From positions 53,663,038-53,727,037 of the forward strand of contig OZ034972.1 of assembly GCA_964030785.1 (NCBI GenBank): a DNA stretch of 64,000 bases, given 5' to 3'. Shown here one piece after another: positions 27,163 through 59,532 of the stretch; within the stretch, counting starts at the first letter, position 1, and every line of letters starts with the position of its first letter. The notes beneath the pieces are model-generated. The model was not told the DNA's origin and did not search any database. It saw only the letters and a list, made by a program, of their open reading frames with translations. Made by a program: the position numbers and the translations under genes. The stretch comes from Siderastrea siderea. Taxonomy: Eukaryota > Cnidaria > Anthozoa > Scleractinia > Rhizangiidae.

Positions 27163-27240
27163 ATTCAGGTCGTAGATACGTGGTGTAACTATCATATAGT
27201 GGTTTGACTTAATCCAATATAGGCATAAACATAGGAAGCA

Positions 27241-30200
27241 ATATACATAGCTATACACAGACATACACAGCCATACATGGCTATACATGGCTATACATGG
27301 CTATACATGGCTATACACAGACGTACATAGACATATATAGCTATACACAGCTATACACAGCTATACATAGCTATACATGGCTATACACAGCTATACATGG
27401 CTATACATGGCTATACACAGCTATACATGGCTATACACAGATATACATAGCTATACACAGCTATACACAGCTATACACAGCTATACACAGCTATACACAG
27501 CTATACATAGCTATACATGGCTATACACAGCTATACATGGCTATACACAGATATACATAGCCATACATAGCTATACACAGCTATACACAGCTATACATGG
27601 CTATACACAGCTATACATGGCTATACATCGCTATACATGGCTATACACAGCCATACATGGCTATACATGGCTCTACATAGCCATACATAGCTATACACAG
27701 CTATACACAGCTATACATGGCTATACACAGCTATACATGGCTATACACAGATATACATAGCCATACATAGCTATACACAGCTATACACAGCTATACATGG
27801 CTATACACAGCTATACATGGCTATACACAGCTATACATGGCTATACATGGCTATACATGGCTATACACAGCCATACATGGCTATACATGGCTCTACATAG
27901 CCATATATAGCTATACACAGCTATACACAGCTATACATGGCTATACACAGCTATACATGGCTATACACAGCTATACATGGCTATACACAGCTATACATGG
28001 CTATACACAGATATACATAGCCATACATAGCTATACACAGCTATACACAGCTATACATGGCTATACACAGCTATACATGGCTATACATGGCTATACATGG
28101 CTATACACAGCCATACATGGCTATACATGGCTCTACATAGCCATACATAGCTATACACAGCTATACACAGCTATACATAGCTATAAATGGCTTTACACAG
28201 CTATACATGGCTATACATGGCTCTACATGGCTATACATGGCTATACACAGCCATACATGGCTATACATGGCTCTACATAGCCATACATAGCTATACACAG
28301 CTATACACAGCTATACATGGCTATACACAGCTATACATGGCTATACATGGCTATACACAGCTATACACGGCTATACATGGCTATACACAGCTATACATGG
28401 CTATACATGGCTATACATGGATATACACAGCTATACATGGCTATACACAGATATACATAGCCATACATAGCTATACACAGCTATACACAGCTATACATGG
28501 CTATAAACAGCTATACATGGCTATACACAGCTATACATGGCTATACATGACTATACACAGCTATACATGGCTATACACAGCTATACATGGATATACATGG
28601 CTATACATGGCTATACACAGCCATACATGGCTATACATGGCTCTACATAGCCATACATAGCTATACACAGCTATACACAGCTATACATGGCTATACACAG
28701 CTATACATGGCTATACATGGCTATACATGGCTATACACAGCTATACATGGCTATACACAGATATACATAGCCATACATATCTATACACAGCTATACACAG
28801 CTATACATGGCTATACACAGCTATACATGGCTATACATGGCTATACATGGCTATACACAGCCATACATGGCTATATATGGCTCTACATAGCCATACATAG
28901 CTATACACAGCTATACACAGCTATACATAGCTATACATGGCTATACACAGCTATACATGGCTATACATGGCTATACATGGCTATAGACGGCTATACACAG
29001 CCATACATGGCTATACATGGCTCTACATAGCCATACATAGCTATACACAGCTATACACAGCTATACATGGCTATACACAGCTATACATGGCTATACATGG
29101 CTATACACAGCTATACACGGCTATACATGGCTATACACAGCTATACATGGCTATACATGGCTATACATGGCTATACACAGCTATACATGGCTATACACAG
29201 ATATACATAGCCATACATAGCTATACACAGCTATACAGAGCTATACATGGCTATACACAGCTATACATGGCTATACACAGCTATACATGGATATACATGG
29301 CTATACACAGCCATACATGGCTATACATGGCTCTACATAGCCATACATAGCTATACACAGCTATACACAGCTATACATGGATATACACAGCTATACATGG
29401 CTATACATGGCTATACATGGCTATACACAGCTATACATGGCTATACACAGATATACACAGCCATACATAGCTATACACAGCTATACACAGCTATACATGG
29501 CTATACACAGCTATACATGGCTATACATGGCTATACATCTCTATACACAGCCATACATGGCTATACATGGCTCTACATAGCCATACATAGCTATACACAG
29601 CTATACACAGCTATACATAGCTATACACAGCTATACACAGCTATACATAGCTATACATGGCTATACACAGCTATACATGGCTATACACAGATATACATAG
29701 CCATACATAGCTATACACAGCTATAAACAGCTATACATGGCTATACACAGCTATACATGGCTATACATGGCTATACACAGCCATACATGGCTATACATGG
29801 CTCTACATAGCCATGCATATCTATACACAGCTATACACAGCTACACATGGCTATACACAGCTATACATGGCTATACATGGCTATACACAGCTATACATGG
29901 CTATACACAGATATACATAGCCATACATAGCTATACACAGCTATACACAGCTATACATGGCTATACACAGCTATACATGGCTATACATGGCTATACATGG
30001 CTATACACAGCCATACATGGCTATACATGGCTGTACATAGCCATACATAGCTATACACAGCTATACACAGCTATGCATAGCTATACACAGCTATACACAG
30101 CTATACATAGCTATACATGGCTATACACAGCTATACATGGCTATACACAAATATACATAGCCATACATAGCTATACATAGCTATACACAGCTATACATGG

Positions 30201-32658
30201 CTATACACAGCTATACATGGCTATACATGGCTATACACAGCCATACATGGCTATACATGGCTCTACATAGCCATACACAGCTATACACAGCTATACATGG
30301 CTATACACAGCTATACATGGCTATACATGGCTATACATAGCTATACACAGCCATACATGGCTATACATGGCTGTACATAACTATACACAGCTATACACAG
30401 CTATACATGGCTATACACAGATATACATAGCCATACATAGCTAAACACAGCTATACAAAGCTATACATAGCTATACATGGCTATACACAGCCATACATGG
30501 CTATACATTGCTGTACATAACTATACACAGCTATACACAGCTATACATGGCTATACACAGATAAACATAGCCATACATAGCTATATACAGCTATACACAG
30601 CTATACATGGCTATACACAGCTATACATGGCTATACATGGCTATACATGGGTATACATGGATATACATGGGTATACATTGAGATACACAGCTATACACAG
30701 CTATACATGGCTATACATGGCTATACATGGCTCTACATAACTATACACAGCTATACACAGCTATACATGGCTATACACAGATATACATAGCCATTCATAG
30801 CTATACACAGCTATACACAGCTATACATGGCTATACACAGATATACATAGCCATACATAGCTATACACAGCTATACACAGCTATACATGGCTATACACAG
30901 CTATACATGGCTATACGTGGCTATACATGCTATACACAGCCATACATGGCTATACATGGCTGTACATAACTATACACAGCTATACACAGCTATACATGGC
31001 TATACACAGATATACATAGCCATACATAGCTATACACAGCTATACACAGCTATACATGGCTATACACAGCTATACATGGCTATACATGGCTATACATGGC
31101 TATACACAGCCATACATGGCTATACATGGCTGTACATAACTATACACAGCTATACATGGCTATACACAGCTATACATGGCTATACACAGATATACATAGC
31201 CATACATAGCTATACACAGCTATACATAGCTATACATGGCTATACACAGCTATACATGGCTATACATGGCTATACGTAGCTTAAATGATTATACACAGCT
31301 ATAGACAGCTATACATGGCTATACACAGATATACATAGCCATACATAGCTAAACACAGCTATACATGGCTATACACAGCTATACATGGCTATAAACTGCT
31401 ATACACAGCCATACATGGCTATACACAGATATACATAGCTATACATAGCTATACATAGCTATACATGGCTATACACAGATATACATAGCCATGCATAGCT
31501 ATACACAGCTATACATAGCTATACATGGCTATACACAGCTATACACAGCTATACATGGCTATACATGGGTATACATGGCTATACATGACTATACATGGCT
31601 ATACACAGCTATACATAGCTATACATGGCTATACACAGTTATACATAGACACACATAGCTGTACACAGCTATACATAGCTATACATGGCTATAAACAGCT
31701 ATACATGGCTATACACAGCCATACACAGATATACATGGCTATACACAGATATTACATAGCCATACATAGCTATACACAGCTATACACAGCTACACATGGC
31801 TATACACAGCTATACATGGCTATACATGGCTATACATGGACATACATGACTATACACAGCTATACACAGCTATACATGGCTATACGCAGATATACACGGC
31901 TATACATGGCTATACATGGCTATACATGGGCATGCATGGCTGTATACAGTCATACACAGCTATACATGGCTATACATGGCTATACATACCCATATATAGC
32001 TAAACACAGCTATACACAGCTATACATGGTTATACACAGATATACATAGCCATACATAACAATACACAGCTATACATAGCTATACATGGCAAAACAGCTA
32101 TACATAGCTATACATAGCTATACACAGCTATACATGGCTATTCACAGCCTACATAGCCATACACAGCTATACATGGCTGTACGTGGATATACACAGCTAT
32201 ACATGGCTATACACAGCTATACATGATTATACACAGCTATACATTGCCATACATAGCCATACACAGCTATACATGGCTGTACATGGATATACACAGCTAG
32301 ACATGGCTATACACAGCTCTACATGGCCATACATAGCTATAGACAGCTATACATGGTCGTACGTGACTATACACAGCTATACATAGCTATACACAGCTAT
32401 ACATGACTATACACACTATACACCTCGCTATATACAGCTATACATAGCTATACACAGATATACATGGCTATACACAGCTATACATGGCTATACACAGACA
32501 TACATAGCTATAAACAGCTGTACATGGCTATACAGAGGTATACTTAGCTGTACACATCCATACATGGCTATACACAGCTATTAACAGCTATACATGGATA
32601 TAGACAGCCATACGTGGCTATACCCAGCTATAAATGGCTATACACAGCTATACACTGC
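27241..32658 (+). repeat. Left satellite arm: 10-bp tandem repeat, ~540 monomers
   Basis: Consensus monomers are CTATACACAG and CTATACATGG, with variants CTATACATAG, ATATACACAG/ATATACATAG, CCATACATAG and CTCTACATAG. From 27241 to about 30929 (~369 monomers) the 10-base register never slips; variation is by substitution only. A single-base deletion occurs near 30929, and indels become frequent after 31.27 kb, so the inner end is more decayed. Marker monomers such as CTCTACATAG recur at about 140 and 220-240 bases, showing a higher-order repeat of about 24 monomers. The plus strand reads as a decapeptide repeat in all three frames because 30 nt equals three monomers. Confidence 0.97.
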
Positions 32659-33971
32659 GTTTGTTTTCCCTATCCCTTCTCTTGAAATCTGCTGTTCTTT
32701 GTAATAATTTATTTATTGTTTGCGGTCTTTCCATCAGGGACCGCGCGAGGGGTGGGCTGAGGGGGCTTTTACCCCCTTTCCCTTTTTTGGTGCCATTAAA
32801 ACATAAATGAAAAAGTTGGACAATTTCTTTGTTTCAGAGTTAATCAGTTTTCGGTTTACCAGTTAAATATAATTTTTAATTTAGACCAAACAGGAACTGA
32901 ATACTATAACTCCGTGTTGAAATCGCCTTTCCTTCATTTGGCTTGATTATTTGAAATTCTCACGCGCTCTTGGGGAATCTCGAAGAGTCTGGACCTGTTC
33001 AGACTTTTTCAAGTCACTTGAATCGATGGAAGTTGAAACTGTCGCTCTCGCTCTTGTCGGTCCATTAACTCTGCGCGTACTGTCATCGACTCTTTCCTGT
33101 TGTTGAAGAGTTTGAACTTTAGTTGACTTTTGTTCTTGTGTTGTCCGGGCATTATACATTAGGACCGTTACTTTATCAAGCTAATCTACAAATGTAAACG
33201 TTTCGTCTAGGATATATAGTTGCCAAAAGATGTCATTTCCTCAGTTCTATCGATAAGAAATAAGGCGTTCAGTCCTTAATTAGGCCGCTACGGACTGACT
33301 TTGGTAGAAATGTACGTTTCATGATACTAAACTCAGTAGTGATTTAATATTCTACAGGTCTGCTTGTACAAGTTTTTTTTTAAGGGAAATGTTTTCATGG
33401 TTGAGATCTTTAAAAATGCGAATACGATAAGGTTCATAGCTTGCCGGTTTCATCTTTCGAGTAGAGCCGACCAAAGAACCTGTCAAGGAGCATTATTTTG
33501 GGACTGTTTTAACTGACAACTTTTATCACACTTGGCTGCTCCAGATACATTGCTAATTACTTGAAAAGAGAAAGTTTTTGCGTGAGATTTCCCCCCACCT
33601 GCTTTACACGAGCGATCACCAATTAGCCCCCTCAGACTCTAAAATAGGCCGCACGGTCCCTGTCTATTTAGTTGCCCCAGTTAACCGGTTTGAAACAACT
33701 TTTTTGGACAGTGCTCGCTCAGAAAATTAATCTAGAATCATGTAGTGACAACGGGTCACCGCTTGTTATTTTGTGTTAGCTCAGTCAGCTTTTAAGCAAT
33801 TATTAGTCAGGATATCCAGAATAATGAAGGCTTTAAAATTCTAAGTAAAACATCTGTAAGTTTCTCTGATCCCTAGCACAAACTAAAATTTCAGCACATT
33901 CTTCACAGACAGTGCATGTACCACCCTCATTTCGTTCGCTTCCACACTCACAGCTATACATAGCTATACAG

Positions 33972-34812
33972 GGGTAAAAAGGTACAACTCAGGGTAGTAT
34001 TAGTGGCCCATACCTTTTCAACTTATTCCTGAATGACTTGGAAATAGTTGGACACGAAGAGATATCTTTATTTAAATATGCAGATGATTCTACAATCTTA
34101 GTTACGATCTCTAGAGATTTACCTGATGTATCGGGCATTGCATTGATTAAATTTATGGATTGGACTCACGCAAATAGTGTGCACTGTAATACTAGTAAAT
34201 GCAATTACTCTTGCATAAGAAAGGCAACCCTACAGCCTATCCAATGTTATACAGTATAACCAGGAGCCCATTATGATATTATGCAGTATAGTTGTATCTC
34301 TATACTGGGAGTAACAATACAAAGTAATTGTTAGTTTAGCTTGCATGTTAAGGCAAAGCTTCATGAAGCCAGCAAATGTTTATTTATAATTACAGGCCTG
34401 TGTAAGGAAGGATACACACAGGGCGAATTAGATCAGCGTTTTTAATGCGATTGTGCCCCCTAAAATACTGTATGGCCTTTCAGTTTTTGCAGCTAGTGCT
34501 TCTGACCTCACCGCTGTGCAAAGCTTTTTAAAAAGATGCCACAAGCATCTTTGAGCTCTTGGAAAGTAGTAACCGCCGCCTTTTTGACAAACTTTAACGT
34601 ACTGACCATCCGTCACATAGTCTGCTTCCTAGGTATAAAGATTCATTGGAGCGCCGTAGAAATAGATCCAGTATAAGACCTTCCTATAAGTACAGAACGT
34701 TTTACAATGTAAAGATAGCTTTTTTAATAGATTAACATCTGATACCTATTTTCATCCGATGAATAAATACATTGTTATTACTATTATTATTATTATGATG
34801 ATGATGATGATG
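33972..34812 (+). pseudogene. Decayed non-LTR reverse transcriptase fragment
   Basis: From about 33980 the frame reads T-Q-G-S-I-S-G-P-Y-L-F-N, then ND-L-E, then K-Y-A-D-D-S-T-I-L. These are the conserved Q-G-S...G-P-L-L-F and YADD motifs of LINE reverse transcriptases. After stops and frameshifts, about 34440-34550 reads P-K-I-L-Y-G-L-S-V-F and F-L-K-R-C-H-K, a typical C-terminal LINE segment. The 3' end is AATAAATAC plus (ATT)n and (GAT)n tails. It is flanked on both sides by satellite monomers. Confidence 0.85.
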
Positions 34813-34870
34813 CAATTATACACAGCTGCATATGGCCATACACAGCTATACATAGCTATACACAGCTATA

Positions 34871-34901
34871 CCAGGAGCCCACAACCCTTGTGGGCTCCTG
34901 G
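34871..34901. repeat. Perfect 14-bp-stem hairpin inside satellite remnant
   Basis: CCAGGAGCCCACAA and its exact reverse complement are separated by CCC. The hairpin lies between two CTATA satellite pieces (CTATA on both sides), as if inserted into a monomer. CCAGGAGCCCA also occurs near 34260 in the LINE remnant. Confidence 0.85.
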
Positions 34902-35201
34902 CTATACATAGCTGCAGCCTTGCGCAAACTCCTTAGCTGGCCACATATCAAACGCGTCGCCCTCTTTTGATCAGACTTCCACATAGGGCAGGCATGCATA
35001 GGTGCCTTGAAGGCTGTTGAAAACCAGGAGCACCTGTCGGTTGAATGTAGAGTCCCGGTGGCTTTTTCCTTGCCTAGTTCCTGTGTGGCTTTTTACCAGG
35101 CCTTCACGGTCAATCCATTTAAGTGACGCGAAACGGTTTTTCCGCGACGAGATATAGAGGCCTAGGAACTATGCAAGCTTTTTCCCACAAGAATTCGAAT
35201 T

Positions 35202-35336
35202 GCTAGGAGCCGTGTGTAATATTTGTAAAAACAAACTCCTCTAGTTAAAAAAGAGGGGGTCTTCGTTTTCGTAATTACGAAAACCCCTCTCTTTTAACTA
35301 GAGGAGTTTGTTATTACAGTACACACGGCTCCTAGC
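35202..35336. mobile_element. 135-bp palindromic MITE-like element
   Basis: GCTAGGAGCCGTGTG at the left is repeated inverted as CACACGGCTCCTAGC at the right. Complementarity continues through AACAAACTCCTCTAGTTAAAA to the centre at GTAATTAC. Arms differ by a few small indels. No target duplication was found. Confidence 0.8.
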
Positions 35337-35838
35337 GTACTTCTGTGTTTTTACCACATTTTGAAGTCATCTGTGTGTTCATTATCAGAGTACACACGCA
35401 CGTCCAAATGGAATCCATTCGTTCAATAATAGTCCGAGTCCGAGTCATTTTGGTACACTGTCAAGCAGTTGCAACACTTTGTACCAATTCTGTGACTAAT
35501 AATGGTTTTCTGCAATTTGTGCACGTCACTGACTTCACCTGTCTTCGTTAAAATTAGTGGTTCGAACTCAGAGTAACAAATGTATGGTGATGGTATGTAC
35601 ATACGTCAGTCAAACTTTTATTAACCAAATGAGGACACCTAAAAAGTTCAAAACGCGGACCCATGAAATTACTTTTTTTATGATTGATATGGTGACATGA
35701 CACAAAGAAGCAGCAAAATACAACTTTATTAACCAATAACAACAACAAAAACAACTGAAGTCTGATGTAGAAGAAACGTACGGTGGATTTGCTTATCGTT
35801 TTTGCCTGTGATTTGTTAACCTCGATAGCACTCACCAT

Positions 35839-38800
35839 GTATAGCCATGTATAGCTGTGTATATCCATATATGACTTTGTATAGCCATATATAGCTGTGT
35901 GTAGCCATATATAGCTGTATACAGATATGTATAGCTGTGTCAGTATAGCCGTGTATACCTGTGTATAGCTGTGTATAGCCATGTATAGCCATGTATAGCC
36001 ATGTTTAGCTGTGTATAACCATATATAGCTGTGTATAGCTGTGTATAGCTATGTATGGCTATGTATATCTGTGTATAGCCATGTATAGCTGTGTATAGCT
36101 GTGTATAGCCATGTACAGCCATGTATAGCCATGTATAGCCATGTATAGCTGTGTATAGCCAGGTGTATAGCTGTGTATAGCTATGTATGGCTATGTATAT
36201 CTGTGTATAGCCATGTATAGCCATGTATAGCTGTGTATAGCCAGGTGTATAGCTGTGTATAGCTATGTATGGCTATGTATATCTGTGTATAGCCGTGTAT
36301 AGCTGTGTATAGCCATGTATAGCTATGTAAAGCTGTGTATAGCTGTGTATAGCTATGTATGTCTATGTATATCTGTGTATAGCCATGTATAGCTGTGTAT
36401 AGCCATGTATAGCTTTGTATAGGCATGTATAGCTGTGTATAGCTATGTACGACTGTGTATAGCTATGTATAGCTGTGTATAGCCATGTATGGCGGTGTAT
36501 AGTTATGTAAAGCTGTGTATACCCATGTATAGCTGTGTATAGTCGTGTATGGCTGTGTGTTGCTGTGTATAGCTGTGTATAGTTATGTATAGCTGTGTAT
36601 ACCCATATATAGCTGTGTATAGTCGTGTATGGCTGTGTATTGCTGTGTATAGCTGTGTATAGCTGTGTATAGTTATGTATAGCTGAGTATAGCTATGTAT
36701 GGCTATGTATATCTGTGTATAGTCATGTATACCTGTGTATAGCTGTGTATAGCTATGTATGGCTATGTATATCTGTGTATAGGCATGTATAGCTGTGTAT
36801 AGCTGTGTATAGCCATGTACAGCCATGTATAGCCATGTATAGCCATGTATAGCCATGTATAGCTGTGTATAGCCATGTATAGCTATGTATAGCTGTGTAT
36901 AGCTATGTATGGCTATGTATAGCTGTGTATAGCCATGTATAGCTGTGTATAGCTATGTATGTCTATGTATAGCTGTGTATAGTCATGTATAACCATGTGT
37001 TGCCATGTATAGCTGTGTATAGCCATGTATAGCTATGTATAGCTGTGTATAGCTATGTATGGCTATGTATATCTGTGTATAGCCATGTATAGCTGTGTAT
37101 AGATGTGTATAGCTATGTATGTCTATGTATAACTGTGTATAGCCATGTATAGCCATGTATAGCTGTGTATAGCCATGTATAGCTGTGTTTAGCCATGTAT
37201 AGCTGTGTATAGCTGTGTATAGCTATGTATGGCTATGTATATCTGTGTATAGCCATGTATAGCTGTGTATAGATGTGTATAGCCATGTATAGCTGTGTAT
37301 AGTCATGTATAGCTGTGTATAGCCATGTATAGCTATGTATAGCTATGTATAGCTATGTATAGTTATGTATAGCTGTGTATAGCTGTCTATAGCCATGTAT
37401 AGCTGTGTATAGTCATGTATAGCTGTGTATTGCTGTGTATAGCTGTGTATAGCTGTGTATAGTTATGTATATCTGTGTATTGCCGTGTATAGCTGTGTAT
37501 AGCTGTGTACAGTTATGTATAGCTGTGTATTGCCATGTATAGCTGTGTATAGCCATGTATAGCTATGTAAAGCTGAGTATAGCTATGTATGGCTATGTAT
37601 ATCTGTGTATAACCATGTATAGCTGTGTATAGTTGTGCATAGCTATGTAAGGCTATGTATATCTGTGTATAGCCATGTATGGCTGTGTATAGCTGTGTAT
37701 AGCCATGTACAGCCATGTATAGCCATGTATAGCCATGTATATCTGTGTATAGCCATGTATAATTATGTATAGCTGTGTATAGCTATGTATGGCTATGTAT
37801 ATCTGTGTATAGCAGTGTATAGCTGTGTATAGTTGTGTATAGCTATGTATGTCTATGTATAGCTGTGTATAGCCATGTATAGCCGTGTACAGCCATGTAT
37901 AGCCATGTTTAGCTGTGTATAGCCATGTATAGCTGTGTATAGCTGTGTATAGCTATGTATGGCTATGTATATCTGTGTATAGCCATGTATAGCTGTGTAT
38001 AGTCATGTATAGCTGTGTATAGTCATGTATAGCTGTGTATAGCCATGTATAGCTGTGTATAGCTGTATATAGCTATGTATAGTTATGTATAGCTGTGTAT
38101 AGCTGTGTATAGCCATGTATAGCTGTGTATAGTCATGTATAGCTGTGTATTGCTGTGTATAGCTGTGTATTGCTGTGTATTGCTGTGTATAGCTATGTAT
38201 AGCTGTGTATTGCCATGTATAGCTGTGTATAGCCATATATAGCCATGTACAGCCATGTATAGCCATGTATAGCCATGTATAGCTGTGTATAGCCATGTAT
38301 AGCTATGTATAGCTGTGTATAGCTATGTATGGCTATGTATATCTGTGTATAGCCATGTATAGCTGTGTATAGTTGTGTATAGATATGTATGTCTATGTAT
38401 AACTGTGTATAGGCATGTATAGGCATGTATAGCCATGTATAGCCGTGTATAGCCATGTATAGCCATGTATAGCCATGTTTAGCTGTGTATAGCCATGTAT
38501 AGCTATGTATAGCTGTGTATAGCTATGTATGGCTATGTATATCTGTGTATAGCCATGTATAGCTGTGTATAGCTGTGTATAGCCATGTATAGCTGTGTAT
38601 AGTCATGTATAGCTGTGTATAGATGTGTATAGCTGTGTATAGCTGTGTATAGCTATGTCTAGTTATGTATAGCTGTGTATAGCTGTGTATAGCCATGTAT
38701 AGCTGTGTGTAGTCATGTATAGCTGTGTATTGCTGTGTATTGTTGTGTATAGCTGTGTATAGCTGTATATAGCTGTGTATAGTTATGTATAGCTGTGTAT

Positions 38801-40270
38801 TGTCATGTATAGCTGTGTATAGCCATGTATAGCTGTGTATAGTCATGTATAGCTGTGTATAGCCATGTATAGCTGTGTATAGCTGTGTATAGCTATGTAT
38901 AGTTATGTATAGCTGTGTATAGCTGTGTATAGCCATGTATAGCTGTGTATAGTCATGTATAGCTGTGTATTGCTGTGTATTGCTGTGTATAGCTGTGTAT
39001 AGCTGTATATAGCTGTGTATAGTTATGTATAGCGGTGTATTGTCATGTATAGCTGTGTATAGCCATGTATAGCTATGTATAGCTGTGTATAGCTATGTAT
39101 GGCTATGTATATCTTTGTATAGACATGTATAGCTGTGTATAGTTGTGTATAGGTATGTATGGCTATGTATATCTGTGTATAGCCATGTATGGCTGTGTAT
39201 GGCTGTGTATAGCCATGTACAGCCATGTATAGCCATGTATAGCCATGTATAGCTGTGTATAGCCATGTATAGCTATGTATAGCTGTGTATAGCTATGTAT
39301 GGCTATGAATATCTGTGTATAGCCATGTATAGCTGTGTATAGTTGTGTATAGCTATGTATGTCTATGTATAACTATGTATAGGCGTGTATAGCCATGTAT
39401 AGCCATGTTTAGCTGTGTATAGCCATGTATAGCTGTGTATAGCTATGTATGGCTATGTATACTGTGTATAGCCATGTACAGCTGTGTATAGCTGTGTATA
39501 GCCATGTATAGCTGTGTATAGTCATGTATAGCTGTGTATAGCCATGTATAGCTGTGTATAGCTGTGTATAGCTATGTATAGTTATGTATAGCTGTGTATA
39601 GCTGTGTATAGCCATGTATAGCTGTGTATAGTCATGTATAGCTGTGTATTGCTGTGTATAGCTGTGTATAGCTGTGTATAGCTGTGTATAGTTATGTAGA
39701 GCCATGTATAGCCATGTATAGCCATGTATAGCTGTGTATAGCTGTGTATAAACACTGTATACCCATGTATAGCCATGTATAGCCATGTATAGCCATTCAT
39801 AGCCATGTATATCTGTGTATAGCCATGTATAGCTGTGTATAGCTGTATATAGTTATGTACAGCCATGTATAGCCATGTATGGCTGTGTATAGCCATGTAT
39901 AGCCATGTATAGCCATGTTTAGCTGTGTATAGCCATGTATAGCTGTGTATAGCTGTGTATAGCTATGTATGGCTATGTATATCTGTGTATCTCTGTGTAT
40001 AGCCATGTATAGCTGTGTATAGCCATTTATAGCTATGTACAGCTGTGTATAGCTGTGTATAGCTATGTATGGCTATGTATATCTGTGTATAGCCATGTAT
40101 AGCTGTATATAGCCATGTATAGCCATGTATAGCTGTGTATAGCCATGTATAGCTATGTATAGCTGTGTATAGCTGTGTATAGCTATATATGTCTATGTAC
40201 ATCTGTGTATAGCCATGTATAGCCATGTATAGCCATGTATAGCTGTGTATGTCTGTGTATAGCTATGTAT
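35839..40270 (-). repeat. Right satellite arm: 10-bp tandem repeat, inverted
   Basis: Reverse complement of the left-arm monomers (CTGTGTATAG, CCATGTATAG, CTATGTATAG). The register is kept from about 36251 to 39460 (~321 monomers), with indels near both ends. The same ordered variants as in the left arm occur (ATATACATAG followed by CCATACATAG, read on the minus strand). This arm is about 1 kb shorter than the left arm. Confidence 0.97.
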
Positions 40271-40449
40271 ATTGCTTCCTATGTTTATGCCTATATTGGA
40301 TTAAGTCAAACCACTATATGATAGTTACACCACGTACCTACCATTCAGGTCTGAATAGCCCACTGGCCAAATGCGGAAAATCGTGGGCTCAGTCTTTTCT
40401 CGAAGAAAAGATTTCGCCATCAAATGGCACTTGTTCCCTCGACTGTTGA

Positions 40450-44170: not shown

Positions 44171-47100
44171 TTATATTATTTCAAATAATTTTTTCAATTC
44201 GATCATCAACTGCCAGTCAGCTTTCTGTAAATCTTCTCTGAAGTAATCCTTTACAGCATCAATTGACTCCCGGCTTATCTGTAAGAACAAAGAGAAAAAT
44301 AAAACTTGCAAACTTGAAAATTTTAACACAAGTGCGGACATGTAAACACATGACTTTACGCTTTCTTGTAAGGCGGAACACCTGTTGATTAGCGTAATCA
44401 GTTTTTACCTCGTATCGTATTCTTTTCCCATACCAACGACATTTCGTTCCACGTTTTTACCTTTGCCAATATGGCAAAAAAAAAAACCTTGAAAGGCTCT
44501 ATTCTAGAAAGAAACTTGAGGTACATTTGTATCGAATTGAGCGGAAAGAGGGCAACATCCGAGACAAAAAGGGCCTTGTAGAGGTAACGGGAAACGGTAT
44601 AAATAGAAAATAAATTGGTTATATTTAGTGATATTTTGCAAAAAAATAAATAAAAACGCAAAAAGCGGAGCCGCAAGGAAGTGTCGGGAACAGGAAGTGT
44701 ACGGGAAGCGACAATATTTCATGTTCCCCTGCCCCATGAAATTCAGCGGCATTGTAATTTTACCTTGCTAACCAGGAGGTCTGTATGATCAAAGTGCCGG
44801 CCGTACATTTTCGGCGCCTCTCCGGGAGGAGATTCTATCTTCACACAAATTTCCATTCCCTTACGAGCTTCAGTGAGTGGCTTGTGGTTTGCTTCAATGC
44901 CGGTGACGACCCCGATATCCAGAAACTAAAAATAAAAAACAACCACAAATAACTAAGTTTTTCAGTGGAAGTAAAGACGGTGGATAAGAATGGTCTCTGT
45001 CGTTATCCAGACCGGAAACTTTAGGCCCCGACCACACTGATGCCTTTTTGTTTGAAAACGCAATACTTTTTATGCGTTTTGCCGACTGTCCACACTAAAG
45101 CGATCGAAAACAGAGCTGTTTATCAAAAGGAACGGAGGTTTTCGAAAACGCTCTCCAAAAAGGAGAATTTAGAAAGTGTTGGTCTATCGGTTTGGTGTGG
45201 AAGGCAGAAGCGAAGCTTTCCGAAAATGCTGAAGTGAAAACTAATTACGCAGTCGCTGGTAGAATCGCGGGAGCCATTGAAGCATGCGCATAAGAAAACA
45301 AAAAGGTCCGAAAACAACCCGAAACGCAAACGCATCTTTCGATATCCTTTTTTCATTACCTAAAGTGAACACTGATCTTTTTATCCGTTTTTGAGACACC
45401 AAAAACGGAGGATTTCTTAAATGCATTATTATTTATTTATTCATTTATTTCAGTTTATACAGGAACATCTGGTTTAGCATTAAAATAGAGCTAGTTTAAA
45501 CAGAGTCCTGTAAAAACAAATAAACAGATACCAGGAAAATCAATACAGAAAGTAGCACACAATAAAACACAGAGACACGCGATAATTAAAGAGACTGGAC
45601 ACTGGCGCTTGAAGTGCCGATTCGCCAGGGACTTGAACGTATTTAAGTCCGTTGCAGATCGAAAGCCTTCCATTAGTTTGGAAGGGGCCCTATTCGACAT
45701 TGTAATTATCTTCCCAGGTGTACAAATGGGAACTGACGAATCATTAAGGAAACCTAACAAAACCTTGGGGATAAAGATACGATTGACTAGCATTCCATCC
45801 AGGGTAGGGAGAGGTAATATTGCATTCCATCCAGGGTAGGGAGTGGTAATATTGCATTCCACCCAGGGTAGGGAGAGGTAATATTGCATTCCATCCAGGG
45901 TAGGGAGTGGTAATATTGCATTCCATCCAAGGTAGGGAGTGGTAATATTGCATTCCATCCAGGGTAGGGAGTGGTAATATTGTGATCCTCCTAGTGGGAT
46001 TGTGCAAATGAAATTGGATTAGCGGCAGTGAGGGTGTCCTGTGGGTTGTGTGCCACTTACGTGCAGTACAATAAATAATTCTCACCTCTTTGCTAGGGAC
46101 TGTGATAGGGGTCCCCTCCTTCACTACACCAGCCTCCACAGTCACACCAACAACAATGGGGCCTCGCGAGTTGAAGATGTGCTGAGGGAGGATTCGAAGT
46201 TTGCACGGAAATACCGCAATATGCTTGAATTCTTCACGCTTCTTTTGCTTCAGTTCCTGGTGAAGGGAATTTATTTGCAATTGTAAACACTCGGTTCTCG
46301 GTGTTTTAACGGTAAGGCAGATGTTTTGTTCTTGAGAACAAGCGCACTTGCAATGTAGATGGGGTCACCTTTGAAACAAGAACTCTGACCACAAAAACAA
46401 TATTACGATAACTTGTTCAGTTGTCACTGACAGACTGTTTTCAAAATTGTGCTGACTAGCAGAGTGTCGCCATGGTGAAGCACTAGCTTCACCTGACTCG
46501 TCCCCAGTCGTCTCTTGTTGTCTTCTCTGGAGGCCGGAGTCGTGGGAAACTGGGAGAACTCTCGGGACGAAGGTAATGATAGGAAGCCCTCGCACCCACC
46601 CTTTGCTTGCGAGGAGACCACTAGGAGCGAGTCAGCTTTCAAGTCAACTCACTTCTCTCAAAAAAGTCCCGGGTACTGACTCGGTATCACATGTGGCTCG
46701 GGTTCGTTGTTGGTTCTTGTCTGTGCTCCGACCGTTTTTCTCGGGGTTCTCCAGTAAAAACCAACGTTTTAAGATCCCAAGTTCATGCTTATGGGCCCCT
46801 TTCTTGATAGCTGAAGCACAGAGATTTGACGCTTACCTCTCTATAAGCTGTGAATTTGTCAAACAAGTGGTAGATGATGTCGGCGGCGAAGATTTTCACG
46901 CCTAAACTGTCGGCCATCTCTTGTGCTTCTCTCTCTATCCGCACGTCAAAAGCCAGGATAACAGCATATCTACAAGGTATACAAGCATGTAAAGCTTAGA
47001 TGACCACAGCAAAACGCAAAGTGCGTAACTGGATAAAGCTACTTAAGGGAATTTTCTATGTTTATGGTGGCAGATTGCGTAATGTTTGCTGCGCTTTTCC

Positions 47101-50100
47101 ACGCTTGCTAACGGGTTCAAGGTGTTTGTCTTTTTCAGAGCATGTTTCCCACGCTTAGAAGCGGTTACGTCTCCCCCCTGCTTAGTAGAACAGCTACAAG
47201 TGCTAGCCGGCTGATACACTTCCCCATGCTTGCCTGCACCTAGAGTTTTTTCTGCGGGTGTTAGCCGCTTATAATGTCGGGTTGTTTAAAGACCGCGAAG
47301 TTTAAAAACAAAATAGTAGCGAGTAGTGAAAACAGAGACTGCGTGTGTTAAGAAAAGTTCTATTCCCTTTCTTCAAGATTATTGTTAGTCATGGAAATAT
47401 TCGACGAAAAGCCCGATCGTAAAACGACATGAAAGGAAAAAAGTTTTAACAGCAAACTACATACTGTCCGTCATGCTCCAACATGGTTGAACATTTCATG
47501 ATATCTTTCTTGTGAACTGGACCAATGTTCACTCCTGAGTACTGTTGGTGAAAGAAAAACATACGGACCAGTTTCTCCAGAAGACAAGTTTCATTTGCTA
47601 TCAAGATGCCCCATTACAATTCATTCTCGAAGGTGGCAAAGTTGGGGGGAGAACATTTAAAATGAAATTGCGTTTCTTGAATGCTAGGTCCCGTCTACGC
47701 CCAACTACAGTTTTCCTTTGGCTTAAAACGCAGCAATGTCGTCTTCACCTGTTCATAGTAATACGACTTCATTTAAAACCGCACATGCCTTATAGGTGTT
47801 TCGTCCTTCGTTCACCTAAAACGATTCAAAATGGCTGGCTGGGAATCAACATTGTAAAGACTCTCGTTGACCCGTCCTTTCTACCCTATTGATGTTTAAA
47901 TTCATGTTAAGGTATCATAGCGTCTTCTTAACATGGGTATTCAAGGGTATACAGGGATGTACAGGGGTAAATATGGGTACTCAAGGATATACAGGGGTGT
48001 AAAGGGTAAATATGGGTACTGAAGGGTATACAGGGATGTAAAGGTGGGTAGTGAACGGTGTACAGGTATTTCAGGGCATACATAGGTATTCAAGAGTATA
48101 CAAGGATGTAAAGGGATACAAGTTGGTACACAAAGCCACCACCGGCCTTGAGGGATACTATAAGGAGGCTATAATATGGTACCCTGACATGAACTACATG
48201 CCGCTTTTATCGGCTCTAGCAGTCATATTTAATACTCACAGGAATTTTTGAAGTGCGCAGGAATTCAAGCAGGGCTTCCAGTGATCCAAGAGTAGAGGCT
48301 TGTACATACACACCCCGGTCAGACAGCTTGATCGACTGAAGTGTGTCACGCAATATGCTTGATACTTCATCCTGTTGAGAGACAGAACGTGATCAATAGT
48401 GAAAAACGTCACGTTTAGTTTGTTGCTCAGTTTTGATGGTCACACAACCTTTGGGAAACGTGACGTTGCATCGTTTCATATCAACCTCCCACTCGTAAAC
48501 ATTCGAACTGACTCGAATTTCGAGGCTCTGAAAACCGGAAACAACGTTGCTTTATGCGTTTGAAGTAGCGGTGAACTCTTCATGAACACTAGAAGTTTAT
48601 GAAGTAGCGGTGAACGTTTCGGTGTTCACCGCTACTTCAGGCTTGTTTGGATACGAGAAGACCAACCACCAAAGATTAACATATGCACTTTTCTATTCTC
48701 TCCTAACAAAAAATAACTTGTGCCTACGTTGCCTACGAATAACTAACGGCAGTCATACGCACCTTGAAGTAGTCCACTTCATCCGGCTGCTGCGCTACAA
48801 ACAATGGTATTCCGGCAAGCGCCTTTTCCAGGTCCTTCGCAGCAATCTTTATACCCTGGGCCCCAGACAGCTCTTTGTGGTTTAGGTACTGGTTTTTGAC
48901 CCTCAGTTCCTTCAGGGGCTGAGGTGTGAGAAGGGCCCTGATCTGTGTCACAATAGGACCCTCGATTCCAGCCACAACTATGGTGTCGCCCTCCTTCAGT
49001 TTTCCGTTTACCAGGATCACATCTATCGTTGTACCGAGGCCTGGTAACGCTTTGACCTGCGAACAACAACAATCGTTTGGAGGGTCTATTCTCACGGGGA
49101 ATGACAAGCACAACAGCCTCAATCCCTATGTTAAAATGCTGTGGCCCTATATATCCATGGAAGAGTTCCGAGTTTGTACGCCTAGTATGATTTGGTTTCC
49201 ATTCCTCTTTCCTTTCATTCACAGGCAGGTAAAACTCATTTTCATACGAAAGTTGTGCATTTGGCCTCGCTTTGAGAAAAAGGCACAAGACCACACGGAA
49301 ATGGCCTATAGTAGCCCGAAGAGTCTAAACTGCGCGTCGACGAAGGACTTTGTGAAAGTCTACAGTCATGTTGGAAAATGTTCGTAAATCCTCTCTTAGG
49401 AACAATTCTGCTTATTCAGTAAACAATCACCTATTGTAATTTCTGGAAAAATACTGATATCAGTTTCGTTTTTGGGGGAATCTTAACGCGTCTCAAGACT
49501 GATAAATCATTTCTTTCCACAAACGATACGAGCAAGCAAGTCACGTGTGCGATATTCAGAAACTTAACTCGAAAGTTTTGCCCCCTACTTTAGATACATC
49601 TCACACTTTCCTAAATAGTAATGAGCAGCATTAAGTCCTACCTCTAGCACCATGCACTGCAGCTCCTCGGAGAAGGCCAGTCGCTGAGCCAGCTTTGTTT
49701 GTGTCAGTCTCACCACTTGAGAGATAAGATCACCCATTCCATCCCCTGTGTGTGCAGATGTGGGCACTAAAGACACATATGATCTCGCGTCTGGATTGTT
49801 GTGGAAAAGTGCGGCATTCAGCGCCTAACACAAAACGAATGTCAACTCGAGTTAGACGAACATGGGTGGAAAGTGAAATACAAAATTTTAGATTATCAAC
49901 TGGGTTGATAAGGCAAAATGCTCTACGGTGGCCAATTTACTTCATCAACTCAGTTGATAAATCCAAATGCTCGTGTTAGACGTAGCCTGAGTCATCAGAT
50001 ACTTTTCTGGGGTCGTCCTCTCTTCTCATCTTCCCTTATTATGCTACTACTCATTTTTTTCCCTAATGAATAGAATTTTCTAGAAGTCAAGCAAAACCTA

Positions 50101-53100
50101 AAATGACAGTTTTCCAAAGAAGTCGTAGGGACAACAAAGGGTCAAAGAAGGCTAAAGCAAACGAAGACTGATCTTGAGATTACAGACAATGATAAAGGGC
50201 ACATTTTCTCGCGCTAATTGTACCAGCAGCACTTTTACGTGCTTGTGATAGGCAGCTTGATTCACTGGGTACTGGATGCATGCTTTTCCACGCTTAATTA
50301 ACATCAAATGAAAGTTTTCTCTCGACACTAGAGCTACGCTTTTGTGGGCATGACACCAGAGGCACCTTTTCCTGCGCTTGGCGCCTGACGCGATTGACAC
50401 CCGTGCTCGTCACCCAATTTACACCTGAAAAAGTGTTTTCCTGTGCCTCAAACAGGCTGCTTGTTAACAAAACCAACCTGTTCAGCAAAGTCTTTCACAG
50501 CGACCTGCACTCGCTCATCAAACTCTTGCTTGGTGTTTTTCTTTTGTTTTTTCATGGTGTCCACAATACCTGAGTTGGGACCTCTCTTCCACTCAAACAG
50601 CCTGTCAACCTTTAATCAAACAAGACTTATATGAGAAATAAAAGCAATAATAAAAATCACTGAAACGCACTGTCAGTCGAAAAGACAGCCAGGAAATTTA
50701 CAAATTTTGATAAGAAAACGTAACCTTATTTAATGCCACTATAAAAGGCGTTTTCCTTTTCTTCAGTAAGTTAATCGACTCGATTGTCTGTGGCTCCAAA
50801 CTGTGCATAATGTCCACCACTAAGATTGCCATGTCACACAGGGAGGAGCCTCGGGACCGCAGATTACTACAACATACAACAATAACACACGTTAGTAAAG
50901 CCCAGTTCAGGCCGGCCCTCAACTCCGATTTATGATACAAAAAAAAAGCAACTATACACATGGGTAGACAGAGACACAGTGTGGAGTGAACTTTCTTGTA
51001 CATTTGACGGTGAAGAGACCAGCCTTGAACTTCCGACCTTTTGAACAAAAGTCCCATCGAAGCCCAACGTACTGACGACTACAGAACCACGTCTCCACAA
51101 CGCTCTCTCTCCGGACCAGGGTCCCTCTCTGACGCTCCAGCGGGGGGGGGGGGGGGGGGGGTAGAAAGAGGTTACAACAGTTCACGTTTGAAGCCAAAAC
51201 AAAAGCCACACTTGTCATCTTTTCATTTAGAAACTCTAAGCAGTCACCTACAGTGTAGTAGGAAACAGGTCAAAGCAAGAGGACATGATGGACGCCTTAT
51301 GCTCTCTTGGTCAAAGGAAAGGATGGGAGATATCAGTCGAAAGCATCACTGTAAGTGCTCACCTATGAAATGCACTTTTTAACTGACCTGAAAGATTCGT
51401 GTCCAGGTGTGTCAATAATGAGAAGACCAGGCAACTTGATGTCAAAATCTTGGAACTGAAATGACGTTAAAACAATACAAGTTACAGATGTACTTGGTTG
51501 TCGAATGGTAACGAAGACAAAATGACAGCATCAGACGATTCTCGGACGATCGTAACTGTCTAGAATGTTATAATGCGAGTTTGATAAGTTGATTAATTAA
51601 TGTTTCAATTTTTTTTTCTTTTTGAGGTGTCTGTTATAATAAAAATGTCATTTTTATGAAGGATCACGACAAAATACAAGTGAACTTCCCGTAAGTAGGG
51701 ACACAAGTGTCTACTTGGGAGGTGTCTTTTGACTAATATTACAACTATTCAGAGATAATTTTAAACTCACATCCTTGATCATCTTAGTCTGTTCTCTTAT
51801 GGCGTCAACAGGAACCATGGTGGCACCGATCTGCTGAGTAATGCCGCCAGCTTCTCCATCTTGAACATGAGTGTGCCGTATCTACAGCAAGATACACTTG
51901 GTTAGAAAAAAAGGACCGCACTTAAAGTTGAACCAATTGCTGGAAAGCGACTTTCTACAACAGTCACGTGAGGGGTTTTCCTTGCAGGTTGCTTTTGCTC
52001 GCCACTTCTACTGCAGGTCAGTGCACTGTTCAAACTCTACAGATTTTTATTATTAACAACAATGCCAAAGAAATAAAATTATGTAAAGACTGCAGTTTAC
52101 CTTGTCTAAAATCTTAGTTTTTCCAGTATCCACATGACCCAGAACACAGATGACTGGAGATCGCAAGTTGTCTGTGGATCGGTTGGCTTCTGCCCTTACA
52201 CGTCTTTTCTGAAAGACAAATAAAAAGGATTTGTTTAAAGGAGTATTGAGAATATTAAAACAGCTTATGCTTACCCATCAATCCATCACATTTTTGTCCA
52301 GTTTACTCTACATTTGGTAATTTGCATCTTTGCTCAAGTGTAAGTTGATTTGGCTGACACACAGCTCAAACTACATTTTATTACTTTTTCCAAACACATA
52401 CACAATTACATGTACGGAATAAAATCGTCATATTAAGGTCGAGGAGATTTATGTTGTATTACTGTTTTTTTTTTTGGTTGTTGTTGTTTTTTTAACTTTG
52501 TGGTTGACAGTTACTAGTGAAAGTTTGCCAAAAAACTTTCATATTCTTCATTTATCCAAAACATCTTATTCGATGGTCAAACATAGAATACGCGCGGATA
52601 TTTTGCGAGTTGCGAGCAATGAGCAAAATGTCCGCGTGTATTATATGTTAAACCATCGAATAAGAGGTTTATTATTCCACTTAGAAATATCACGTCAAAA
52701 TTTGGTTTTTTCAGTCCTTCGGCCAGAGAACCTTTGAAACCTGGATTTTGCAGTGCAATACACAATTTTACTGTGCAATACCGTGGCATATTTTGCGCAT
52801 TCTCTTGACCTTATAAGGTAAAATGGCGCAAGAGTGAAATAATAAATGTTATTATTACCTCTATTCTCTCCTGCACTGTCTCTGTCTTGCTTTCATCCTC
52901 TTCAGATTCCTCTTCACTCTCACTTTCCTCTTCATCCTCCTCTTCCTCCTCATCTGATCCGCTGTCCTCTTCACTGTCCTCACTCTCCTCTGACTCTTCC
53001 TCGCTTTCTGCAGCTTCCTTGACAGGCTCTTTGACTTCAACCTACAAGCAATAATATTTAACATAATTATTCCCTTTTAAGCCCAAGAAAACAAAGTTAA

Positions 53101-56100
53101 AGACTGAAAAAAATCTGACACTTCATTTAGAATTATATTTAAGACAAATAGCACCAAGGGAAAGTAATGCCCAACAACATTCATTTAAAATTAATGGATA
53201 CATCTTGTGATTTATTCCACAGACTAAATGTAAGAAATGCCTTTACAAAGAGTGCAACAAGCAACACTACAGAAAAGCACTGTTCAGTTGGATACACCAT
53301 GTTCACATGACGCCCATGCATATACGTTTCAGTTCTGGAAAACGAATTTTCATGCAATTTGGTACAGGATTGTTTACAAGTATCACATCAACAAAACTTA
53401 GAGAGAGCCACAAGAGGGCTGAACACTTTGTTTAAAAGTAAAAACACCCCTTTGTCCATACCAGTACATGCAGGTCTTTATTGCACATTCAACATGCCGA
53501 AGTGAGATACTTTAAGGTCAACGTTTCTGAAAATGGCATTGAACTCAAGCTCCAGATATTGAGAATCATGTCCATGTACTAAACAATAAAAAGACTGACA
53601 GGCTTTACCTTGACAGTAACTGGTGTGGCATCAGAAACTGCAAATACGGAATATCTGTATTTGAGTACGTGAATTATGACAGCATAGGACACTTCACGGC
53701 CTGCAGCCTGTGAGTGTGGTGATTATGTCTGATTTCAAGACACCTAAGCGCGGGGGGTGGGGGGGGGGGTAGGGGGGCTTATTAAAGAGAGGGTGGCTAA
53801 TCTTGGAAATATCAAACTGCACATCTATAACTAGATCTGTATTTTTCAACTACTAAGCAGTATTACTCACTGGCAATTAAATTGCTCATCATCTTATCAT
53901 AGTCATCGTGTTGAGTGACTATGATGAATGATTCATTATGCACCCAGTGTCCCCCAGTTTGCAAATGTTGGTGCAGAAACATTAATACTTAACACAGTGC
54001 ATGTAAATGTACTTTTCACTCATTTTGGATCAGAACTGTCGACAGAGTATTTTTTAAAGTTAATACCATTGACAATTTACTTGCTTAAATTAGAAGCAAG
54101 TGCCAAATCACCCTAAAACTCAATCATAAAAAAACAGACCTTTGCCATCTTCTTTATCCTCATTTTCTTCGTCAGTGTCAACATCCCAAGAATCCTTGAC
54201 CTACAAAAATACAGTCTAGCTATTTAATGAATTTCTAATTGTGTGGTTTAACAAGAATTGAGCAGGTTTTGCCAAACTGTGTGATCAAGAGTGATTTCAG
54301 ACAAATTAAGCGAAATTGTACCCTCCCATGTTAAATCCCTGAAGAAATGTTAATGTAAATCATACCTCCTCATCTCGTTCTTCTGTCTCCTCTTCCTTTT
54401 CCTCAACTTGTTCCTCTTCCTCCTCAGCATCACCCATATCTTGTTGATCTGAAAGCATGAAAACTGATAAAAATTTTATTCACTTTTGTGATTACAAAAA
54501 AGTGGAAAGTTGACTTTATTCTAAAGTATTATCAACTCCAACAAAACTAAATCACCATCAGACTTCTTGTCTTCATCCTCTTCAGGGGTTGCCCCCTCAG
54601 TGGCAGCTTCTGCAGAGTTAACAAATTACAGGTTACGGTACATGATCAGTGAGATCTTAACAATGTCATATTATCACACTCCTGGGTGGGGTGAGATGGG
54701 GTAGACAAGTACCATTGTACACAGGCCACATAAAGCCTTCAAAGCCAGACTTAAAAGCCAGTTTCAGTTGTAAGAAGGAACTGTTTCTATTCCACTGAAT
54801 GGTTACATGAAGCATTTTGTTTTTATGTTTCTCTAATGGTCTGTTGGTTACCATTTATACACCTGGGTGGAGAGTTGACAAAGTAGCAGTAGGGTGGGTT
54901 AGAGCACAGTTATAAAAGTGAGAAGAGTACAAAACTAAATTTGATGTGTTTTAACTCTCACTGTGTCCAAAACTTTTGTGATTATTTATCTCCCAAAGAT
55001 CAATTAAATGACAAATGCAGTTTTTCTTACTGAGATCATCAGTTGGTTCTTCTGTTTTCACTTCCTGGTCCTGTTGCTGTTGTTGTTTCTTGGGTTTCTT
55101 GGTGCCGTACCGAACAGGTCGTCTCACTCCATCTTGTTCTTGCTGGTTGAGGGCAGGGATGTCAATCAGTCCTAGAGAAAGAAAGTTTTAAGAATATAAG
55201 GTGCATGTAAATTGTACATTTATTTTCAAGTCTTACTGGAATTTGGACAGTCACTGTTAAACCATTACATCAATACAAAGGTAACTACAGTGTAGGTCAC
55301 ACAAGGGTCCAAAGCAGCCCACACATTCTGCTCTGAACTCCAGTTTCTGTAGCATGTTCAAAGCATTAAATGCTTTGTAATACTCTTAAACTAACTTTGT
55401 TTAAGAGTATTACTACCCCCCCCCCCCCGACAGTGTTGATGAGATGCCTGGGTTTTCACCCCCTGGGTCAAACCCCAAATGTACCCTGTGGTTTTCATAC
55501 TGTACCTTGTTTTTTCATAGAATCCAGCATGGCCTGAGCTCTCGCTTGCTGTTCCTTCTGAGCCTTTGTGAGAAATTTCCCCTCTTTCTTTAACCTGGCA
55601 ATCCTTTCCTGAAATTAAAAAACCTTGTCAAAGTTACATTTTTTCAACAGTCTCTCCTAAACTATAGATTTCAGATGTAATCATTCCACTCAGTTAGACC
55701 ACTTCAACTGTGGCAACGAAAATGGAAGAGATGAGGATGCCCACCCCTGCACAGCAAATGCAAAGACAGCATGAAAGTAAGTCCAAGTAGGAAATGGAAA
55801 TGGAAGCTTGATATGAACCCAGTTTTCACAGTGTTTAGCAAATAAGGATTCCCTACAAATGTCTAAAATGCAGTGGGATTACCATTATTGTACCTTTTCT
55901 TTCTGTTTTTTCCTCTCCTTTCTTTCTTGCTCAAGTCTCAACTGAAAAATAATAATGTGTAACAACACGAATATTAAACTTAATTGTAGGCCAGGAAAGA
56001 CCAGTTTTAAACCACCAGTCAATTCCAAAATTGCCCATCCCCCAGGCGACCCCTTGGCACTAGCTTCTTCGAACTGGTAAATGTTCCACTGTGGGGAGAA

Positions 56101-58768: not shown

Positions 58769-59532
58769 CTGTGTTCAAAATGTAAGAAAAATAATGCAAC
58801 CATCAATATTATGCCCAAAGGGGGTGGGGGACCCTGGAAGGATTCCCACCCTGCGGGGTTTAATGCTAAACACAATAGGTCCTGTAAATGATTTGAGAGG
58901 GGGGGAAATCATCCAGAATAAGGAGATTTAACCTGATTTGATTAAAAAATTCTTCAAAAAGTCAAATGTGCCACAGCTGCCCAGGGCCCGGTTGTGCAAA
59001 AGCTGATTAACACTAATCCTGGATTAAAAGTTAACCAAGGCTCCTGCTTCTCTTGAGGAAAAGAGTTCTCAGCTTTACAAGAATCCTCATCACTTGGCTA
59101 TTAGACTGAACTAAAAACTGGCACTCATCTGCGGTTAGCTCAATCCTCCTTTGAACGACTGGACCCAGGGTCCCCACTGAGGTTTAACACTGCTTCATGT
59201 ATTTGCATCAAGACTATAATACATGTACATGTACCTTTATTACATTCTTTTACTTGGTAATAGAATTTCTAGCTTTTTTATTGGCTCAAACGCAGGTTAT
59301 TGGTGAAAAAAACCTGCTTTTTGCAATGGCTTATCAATGTCAAGTGGCAATTAAAAGCTTTTCCTGCTAGGCAAAAGGTTTGTCTAAAAATATCACAAAA
59401 ATGACACGAAAATGCCGTAAAACACGACCATAAATTGGAAATACCACAATAATTTGCATGATTGCCAGCTTCATGCTTGACTGACTTTATGCTGTAACAC
59501 AACATGCAGACCTTTTGTGACCTTCTAACAAA

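Follow-up and report, generated by a model that had tools for sequence, protein, structure and literature searches.

At positions 27171-40342 of a 64,000-nucleotide stretch of Siderastrea siderea contig OZ034972.1 (assembly GCA_964030785.1, positions 53,663,038 to 53,727,037, forward strand; this whole stretch is called the window) lies a 13-kb unit whose arms are inverted arrays of a single 10-bp repeat. The best overall explanation has this unit as a non-autonomous foldback-type cut-and-paste DNA transposon, to which we would assign a probability of about 0.78. It belongs to a dispersed family, and the dispersal of that family, its target-site duplications and its unoccupied targets together show that transposition has taken place. 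A first-pass annotation, made from the letters of the window alone, had proposed a transposed unit rather than two unrelated satellites, with oppositely oriented arrays of one repeat as its arms; this proposal stands, as do the boundaries that were given for it. The offset target motif, the asymmetry of the ends and the loss of CpG, all described below, are additions to it.

The assembly that contains the window (G000, 830.9 Mb in 402 contigs, of which C1-C14 measure 42-83 Mb each, with the window on C7) holds 170 family ends when searched with a 30-base word allowing up to three mismatches, and the reversed control gave none. With the 75-bp end as the query, 25 full-length identical matches, including the window's own, were present among the best 40 of 187 candidates. 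Within the window a 19-base end piece, again with up to three mismatches, is found at the two termini only, compared with an expectation of 0.01 occurrences. A total of 101 distinct ends were read, comprising those at the first 100 of the 170 places and one inside a fetched locus, so that diverged copies are under-represented. Plus and minus ends less than 80 kb apart form 31 pairs, and the 8-bp duplication is exact in 27 of these and has one mismatch in another; the 28 good pairs span from 335 bp to 71.6 kb. An exact duplication partner is found for 60 of the 101 ends, a number that includes cross-matches between repeats, which are not single insertions. The ends are asymmetric, with 52 starting C-GTAGA, 38 starting G-GTAGG and 11 being other variants, and 27 of the 28 good pairs combine one C-first end with one G-first end. 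Copies with like ends and arms and differing flanking duplications, which the first-pass annotation had suggested looking for, are therefore present in the genome. The family end words, searched as exact words, are absent from the prokaryote and viral collections.

At the ends of the unit in the window, the terminal repeats (27172-27241 against 40272-40341) are identical at 69 of 70 positions when one is inverted, and an ungapped inverted match of the ends has 127 identities over 129 bp, in agreement with the inverted copies claimed earlier. A direct repeat had also been described outside both ends; the 8 bp ATTCAGGT hold, though the other copies show that the additional C belongs to the element, as the base with which its left end starts. 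By chance, 133 of 200,000 random position pairs had a direct repeat of 8 bp within ±2 bp. The tip-to-tip alignment of the two arms scores 375, compared with at most 327 elsewhere, and when the outer ~130 bp of array is removed the score of 274 is inseparable from those of other array positions (best 310 and 268). Likeness of the two arms can thus be demonstrated near their tips only; collinearity beyond the tips was considered and is unsupported by the alignment scores.

Unoccupied targets exist in other, paralogous members of the repeat into which the element inserted; they lie within this one assembly and are to be distinguished from an allelic empty site in another individual. The joined flanks of the insertion at C1:31119502, less the second duplication, occur at 23 places with 100% identity over 82 bp (best 40 of 247). 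Those of the window match a dispersed repeat over 82 bp, the best at 95, 93 and 93% (best 40 of 104). Four unoccupied paralogues were aligned and are continuous where the window has the element, with ATTCATGT, ATTCCTGT or ATTCATAT at the position of the duplication as against ATTCAGGT in the window. As they are uninterrupted at the insertion point, these paralogues provide direct evidence of precise insertion into a repeat. At C1:31119502 and C2:3050563 one repeat has been hit at the identical base in opposite orientations, which excludes, for that pair, duplication of an insertion together with its flanks.

Assemblers have difficulty with long inverted arrays, and the arm lengths reported here rest on the assembly and not on reads. 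Nonetheless, like ends in the same arrangement occur on many contigs, with differing flanks and matching duplications, and uninterrupted targets exist elsewhere in the assembly. The recurrence on many contigs makes an assembly artefact, which the first-pass annotation had named as a way in which it could be wrong, not credible, and we regard this, or two unrelated satellites facing each other by chance, as extremely improbable.

A further 13 complete copies, of 0.45-22.6 kb, were fetched. The foldback architecture recognised earlier in the window, with inverted tandem-repeat arms around a core, is borne out in that both array orientations are present in all 13; array lengths vary widely, one arm reaching ~14.9 kb. 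In one of 5.1 kb (L035) the left array and its end are not contiguous; a further copy of 335 bp (L016), not among the 13, has an array in a single orientation. Core segments are common to the window and 10 of the 13 copies at 95.0-99.5% identity, not counting ~142-bp reverse palindrome matches at 81-82%; of the others, two are coreless and one has a core common to other copies only. Between the window and a 14.4-kb copy the identity is 99.4-99.5% over 965 and 2,214 bp, and the presence of cores that are more than 99% identical shows that the family has been active recently. The reverse-transcriptase fragment in the core (RVT_1, Pfam 2e-8) recurs in the cores of other copies, and is therefore an old passenger. 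Fragments of the 10-bp array occur within the core and suggest a left arm that used to extend further and then became interrupted, and the 31-bp palindrome at 34871-34901 is possibly an insertion into the array. The genes of the large copies (17.8 and 22.6 kb) are those of nested retroelements, so that large size is no sign of autonomy. Also within the core are inverted CAGGGACCG ends 902 bp apart (window 32735-33662), at which no clear duplication was seen and which we take to be reminiscent of hAT-type tips. A search of the window with Rfam at the gathering thresholds gave no match.

Features of the foldback element and its immediate surroundings, in positions of the window
Feature	Position	Strand	Remark
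Target-site duplication, left copy	27163-27170		ATTCAGGT
Whole element	27171-40342		ends of 71 bp; inverted arms, arrays of a 10-bp unit, 5.4 and 4.4 kb long; core of 3.2 kb
Left terminal inverted repeat, C-end	27171-27241	+	CGTAGATACG...
Left arm, 10-bp array	27242-32654	+	consensus TATACATAGC, 541.6 copies
Core	32655-35836
10-bp array remnant within core	33946-33970	+
RVT_1 (Pfam) reverse-transcriptase fragment in core	33978-34256	+	old passenger
Second 10-bp array remnant within core	34817-34869	+
31-bp palindrome	34871-34901		adjoins array remnants
Palindromic core segment	35202-35336
Right arm, inverted 10-bp array	35837-40271	-	442.7 copies
Right terminal inverted repeat, G-end	40272-40342	-	GGTAGGTACG... 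on the minus strand
Target-site duplication, right copy	40343-40350		ATTCAGGT
Weak copy of target motif	40360-40368	-	GGCCAGTGG, 8/9 with pyrimidine allowed at position 3

Many insertions of the family have a one-sided target motif. GGYCAGCGG, at 7 or more of its 9 bases, lies exactly 8 bp outside the duplication on one side at 19 of the 28 complete sites, and 26 other spacings gave 0-2 sites each; the background for such a match is 0.0009 per position. Taking all 101 ends, the motif is at the expected offset in 37, and at 14 other offsets in 0-5. It was first noticed in L001-L030, and the later-read ends L051-L100 were tested apart from the other 51. Of these, 17 of 50 have the motif at the offset (3 at the next-best offset). 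Some of the 50 belong to elements already represented by their other end, or fall in repeats that resemble one another; when redundancy is removed the count is 10 of 37. The opposite side, at the matching spacing, has a mean of 2.5 of the 9 bases, which leaves a symmetric target unsupported. Hairpin structure was considered as the target and is not general among the sites. Nor is a preference of the motif for C-ends (27/62, compared with 10/39 at G-ends) established, given a Fisher p of 0.09. A palindromic repeat of the form CCCAGAG...GGTCAGCG or GGTCTGCG...CTCTGGG, which holds the target motif, has been hit several times, and was seen in the flanks of, for example, L008, L030 and L079 and at L101:54-120.

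That so strong a motif lies on one side only, at a distance of 8 bp, implies that the target is read by a separate domain or by a partner. It may be, and we put this tentatively at a little under even odds, that the integration complex reads the one-sided GGYCAGCGG and cuts 8 bp beyond it, somewhat as a restriction enzyme that cuts beside its site, and that the methylated 10-bp arms, of ~14.9 kb in one copy, act as multi-site transposase arrays and spread satellite DNA through the genome. The motif might on the other hand guide insertion through a host DNA-binding protein, or through motif-bearing repeats or promoters, without being read by the transposase. Several of the motif-bearing flanks do lie within recurrent repeats, some look promoter-like by eye, and one-sided recognition at a distance could amount to tethering. 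Against this, the 28 non-redundant motif flanks have little in common beyond the 9 bases, the spacing is fixed at 8 bp and hairpin potential is not general, and such indirect guidance seems to us possible but somewhat doubtful.

The arms are strongly depleted in CpG. In the window the two arms have observed/expected ratios of 0.07 and 0.08, whereas the core stands at 0.76 and the flanks at 0.81 and 0.67; the 13 fetched copies pooled give 0.079 in 90,099 array bases, with single-copy arrays at 0.04-0.17 and their flanks at 0.56-1.20. At positions 7-8 of the unit (n = 6,855) CG was observed 81 times against 1,198 expected under independence, TG (2,468 against 1,340) and CA (3,048 against 1,902) are both in excess, and TA is low (995 against 2,127). 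The simplest reading would be that methylation, followed by deamination of one strand or the other, removed the CpG from an ancestral TATACACGGC unit. Amplification of two founder units, TATACACAGC and TATACATGGC, could also have produced arms low in CpG with neither methylation nor decay, since these two units dominate both arms of the window and the arrays, which hold long exact internal repeats, grow by block copying. However, the deficit of CG falls at two fixed unit positions across the 13 pooled copies, and an excess of TG and CA with TA below expectation is what single hits on each CpG, on one strand or the other, should produce; we would therefore give the founder units rather less than an even chance.

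The frames examined yielded no transposase, giving either reverse-transcriptase or integrase domains or no match at all; no genome-wide search for P and hAT genes was made. Pfam was run on 8 frames of the window core, 4 frames of two copies and the 5 long frames of the two large copies, of which three have reverse-transcriptase or integrase domains, one a sub-threshold zinc knuckle and one nothing. Open frames of at least 90 amino acids in 9 of the 13 copies were read by eye. In the other four the longest non-array frames are of at most 127 amino acids, and the 127-amino-acid frame and one of 74 overrun the element end. On these results we infer that the mobilising enzyme is made elsewhere.

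The length of the duplication fits both Mutator-like elements (MULEs), with 8-11 bp (PMC6446971), and the P element and hobo (hAT), with 8 bp each (PMC3276498). An apparently complete MULE of 6.9 kb, with an open frame of 984 amino acids, is present at C1:11866600-11876400 (L105-L109); the genome has 53 MULE matches, 5 of which fall in frames equally long. For PF10551 the genome search gave 30.4 bits, which exceeds the cut-off, and a scan of an 823-amino-acid stretch gave 24.6 bits, which falls short of it. Like the foldback family it has inverted short-tandem arms, made of a ~9-bp repeat (CGAAACCAC), ~170 bp each and 90% alike. Its tip GGCATGTAC agrees with the foldback-family tip GGTAGGTAC at 7 of 10 bases by eye, the tip and the 9-bp duplication ATCTCCTCG having themselves been read by eye, and BLAST gave no end homology beyond short words. 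This MULE is not of the foldback family, and nothing links the two directly.

We favour a MULE as the source of the transposase on account of the duplication length, the asymmetric tips and short tandem arms, which are like those of the nematode Tm1 elements, and the presence of the C1 MULE in the genome. A transposase of the P superfamily (Galileo-like), of hAT or of another group that makes 8-bp duplications could mobilise the foldback transposon instead. The 8-bp duplications of the P element and hobo and the lack of a transposase in the family frames would agree with this, as would Galileo, a P-superfamily element whose foldback-like arms have repeated binding sites for the THAP domain (PMC3688188). 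The likeness to Tm1 and the short-tandem inverted arms of a MULE in the same genome speak against it, though weakly, as no search of the genome for P and hAT genes was made; we think such a source unlikely.

Several observations count against parts of the explanation preferred here. Three of the 31 end pairs have no matching duplication (2, 5 and 6 mismatches), and the frames examined gave no transposase. The 32 end pairs that were checked enclose no MULE match out of the 53, and with ~70 of the 170 ends unlisted an autonomous copy may have gone unseen; the shortest distance from a MULE match to one of the 101 ends is 110 kb. The C1 MULE, moreover, differs from the foldback family in its 9-bp duplication and its ends. 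The target motif is missing at spacing 8 from 9 of the 28 sites, and the window's nearest copy, GGCCAGTGG, is at spacing 9. At this same site two of the four unoccupied paralogues have the motif at spacing 8.

With these points set beside the rest, the explanation we prefer would run as follows. A transposase made elsewhere, most likely Mutator-like, would join one C-end and one G-end and move the whole unit, and either it or a partner protein would read GGYCAGCGG and cut at a fixed distance away. At its inner edge the terminal repeat holds CATAAACATAGG, which resembles the unit TATACATAGC; from this edge the arrays would have grown, through slippage or unequal exchange. The arrays may act as many weak transposase-binding sites, as suggested by the repeated THAP-domain sites in Galileo arms. 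The arms would have been CpG-methylated in the germ line, where deamination of the ancestral unit would have removed the CpG.

Some loci of the family are of interest in their own right. At C13:41755034 (L026) a family end is joined directly to a partial second copy of that end, an arrangement that might be left by insertion of an element into another, or by cutting at it. A C-end at C12:25483064 (+) and a G-end at C12:25681971 (-) (L089, L090, L103, L104) lie 199 kb apart with an exact 8-bp duplication TAGAAAAT, oriented as the two ends of a single insertion would be. An inverted array is fused to the left end, and 1.6 kb further in there is a frame for a Tc1-like transposase. Possible readings are that a single element took up a huge insertion, or that two foldback ends carried a large segment between them. 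The flanks of C12:25483064 and of C4:2842073-2854067 (L022, L057, L089, L090) are paralogous targets hit at near-identical positions, apparently in opposite orientations. At C5:56418663 (+) and C5:56490212 (-) (L101, L102) a C-end and a G-end are 71.6 kb apart, with a palindromic duplication GAGAGCTC. The left end of this pair has no array and adjoins a reading frame with 16 relatives, of which one is named, a hypothetical protein of the stony coral Desmophyllum pertusum (72% identity over 57% of the query). The pair was considered as an autonomous copy and rejected, its two inner frames having no Pfam family above the cut-off.

Two further features of the window lie outside the element. Exon-like frames at 45490-58774 (-), the relatives of which are unnamed, surround a 32-bp minisatellite at 45790-45982; we take them, by eye and not by any named match, to resemble the translation factor eIF5B. 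At 60758-63253 (+) an open frame of 831 amino acids with reverse-transcriptase and endonuclease domains represents a non-LTR (long terminal repeat) retrotransposon.

Foldback elements with tandem-repeat arms are already known from flies, nematodes and others. The coral family shares with FB of Drosophila and TU of sea urchins its long inverted arms of short tandem repeats, a likeness of architecture. TU has 15-bp repeats and 8-bp duplications, and the arms of both are much shorter than those of the coral family. Tm1, a Mutator/Foldback group of root-knot nematodes, has terminal inverted repeats of short tandem repeats and asymmetric tips as well (PMC3169594). Its repeats are of 13-15 bp, it is mostly non-autonomous, and its duplications are of 8-10 bp, mostly 9, with no clear target consensus in the account given there (PMC3169594); the coral family, compared by description, differs in its 10-bp unit, arms of up to ~14.9 kb, 8-bp duplication and offset motif. 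Tetris of Drosophila virilis is also a non-autonomous foldback element with 8-10 bp duplications, and its internal tandem repeats seem to derive from the terminal repeats and to grow into satellite-like arrays (PMC4079207). Its unit is however ~220 bp, and the parts of that article covered make no mention of an offset target motif. Galileo, again compared by description, has arms of more than 1 kb and a known transposase (PMC3688188). Rehavkus, a MULE-related group of arthropods and annelids, has a minisatellite near the terminal repeat, though before the 3' end only, and 9-bp duplications (PMC6446971), whereas 28 of the 31 coral pairs have 8 bp.

As far as a literature search of limited scope can show, three things look new: the offset of the target motif, the size of the arms and the coral host. 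That search found no foldback element of such a kind described in corals, and the end and unit sequences were not met among the literature matches listed for the motif, end and unit; both are weak absences. Cut-and-paste elements usually choose their targets by a weak palindrome located where they cut, and landing at a fixed distance is unusual for foldback elements. In 22 families of D. melanogaster with terminal inverted repeats or LTRs, the target motifs are described as palindromic and reaching at most 3 bp beyond the duplication (PMC3276498), a pattern from which the offset motif departs. The coral family shows satellites growing inside transposons and travelling with them. The binding of short tandem arms by transposase has been called untested for Foldback and Phantom (PMC3688188), and the coral family offers a system in which this question can be asked.

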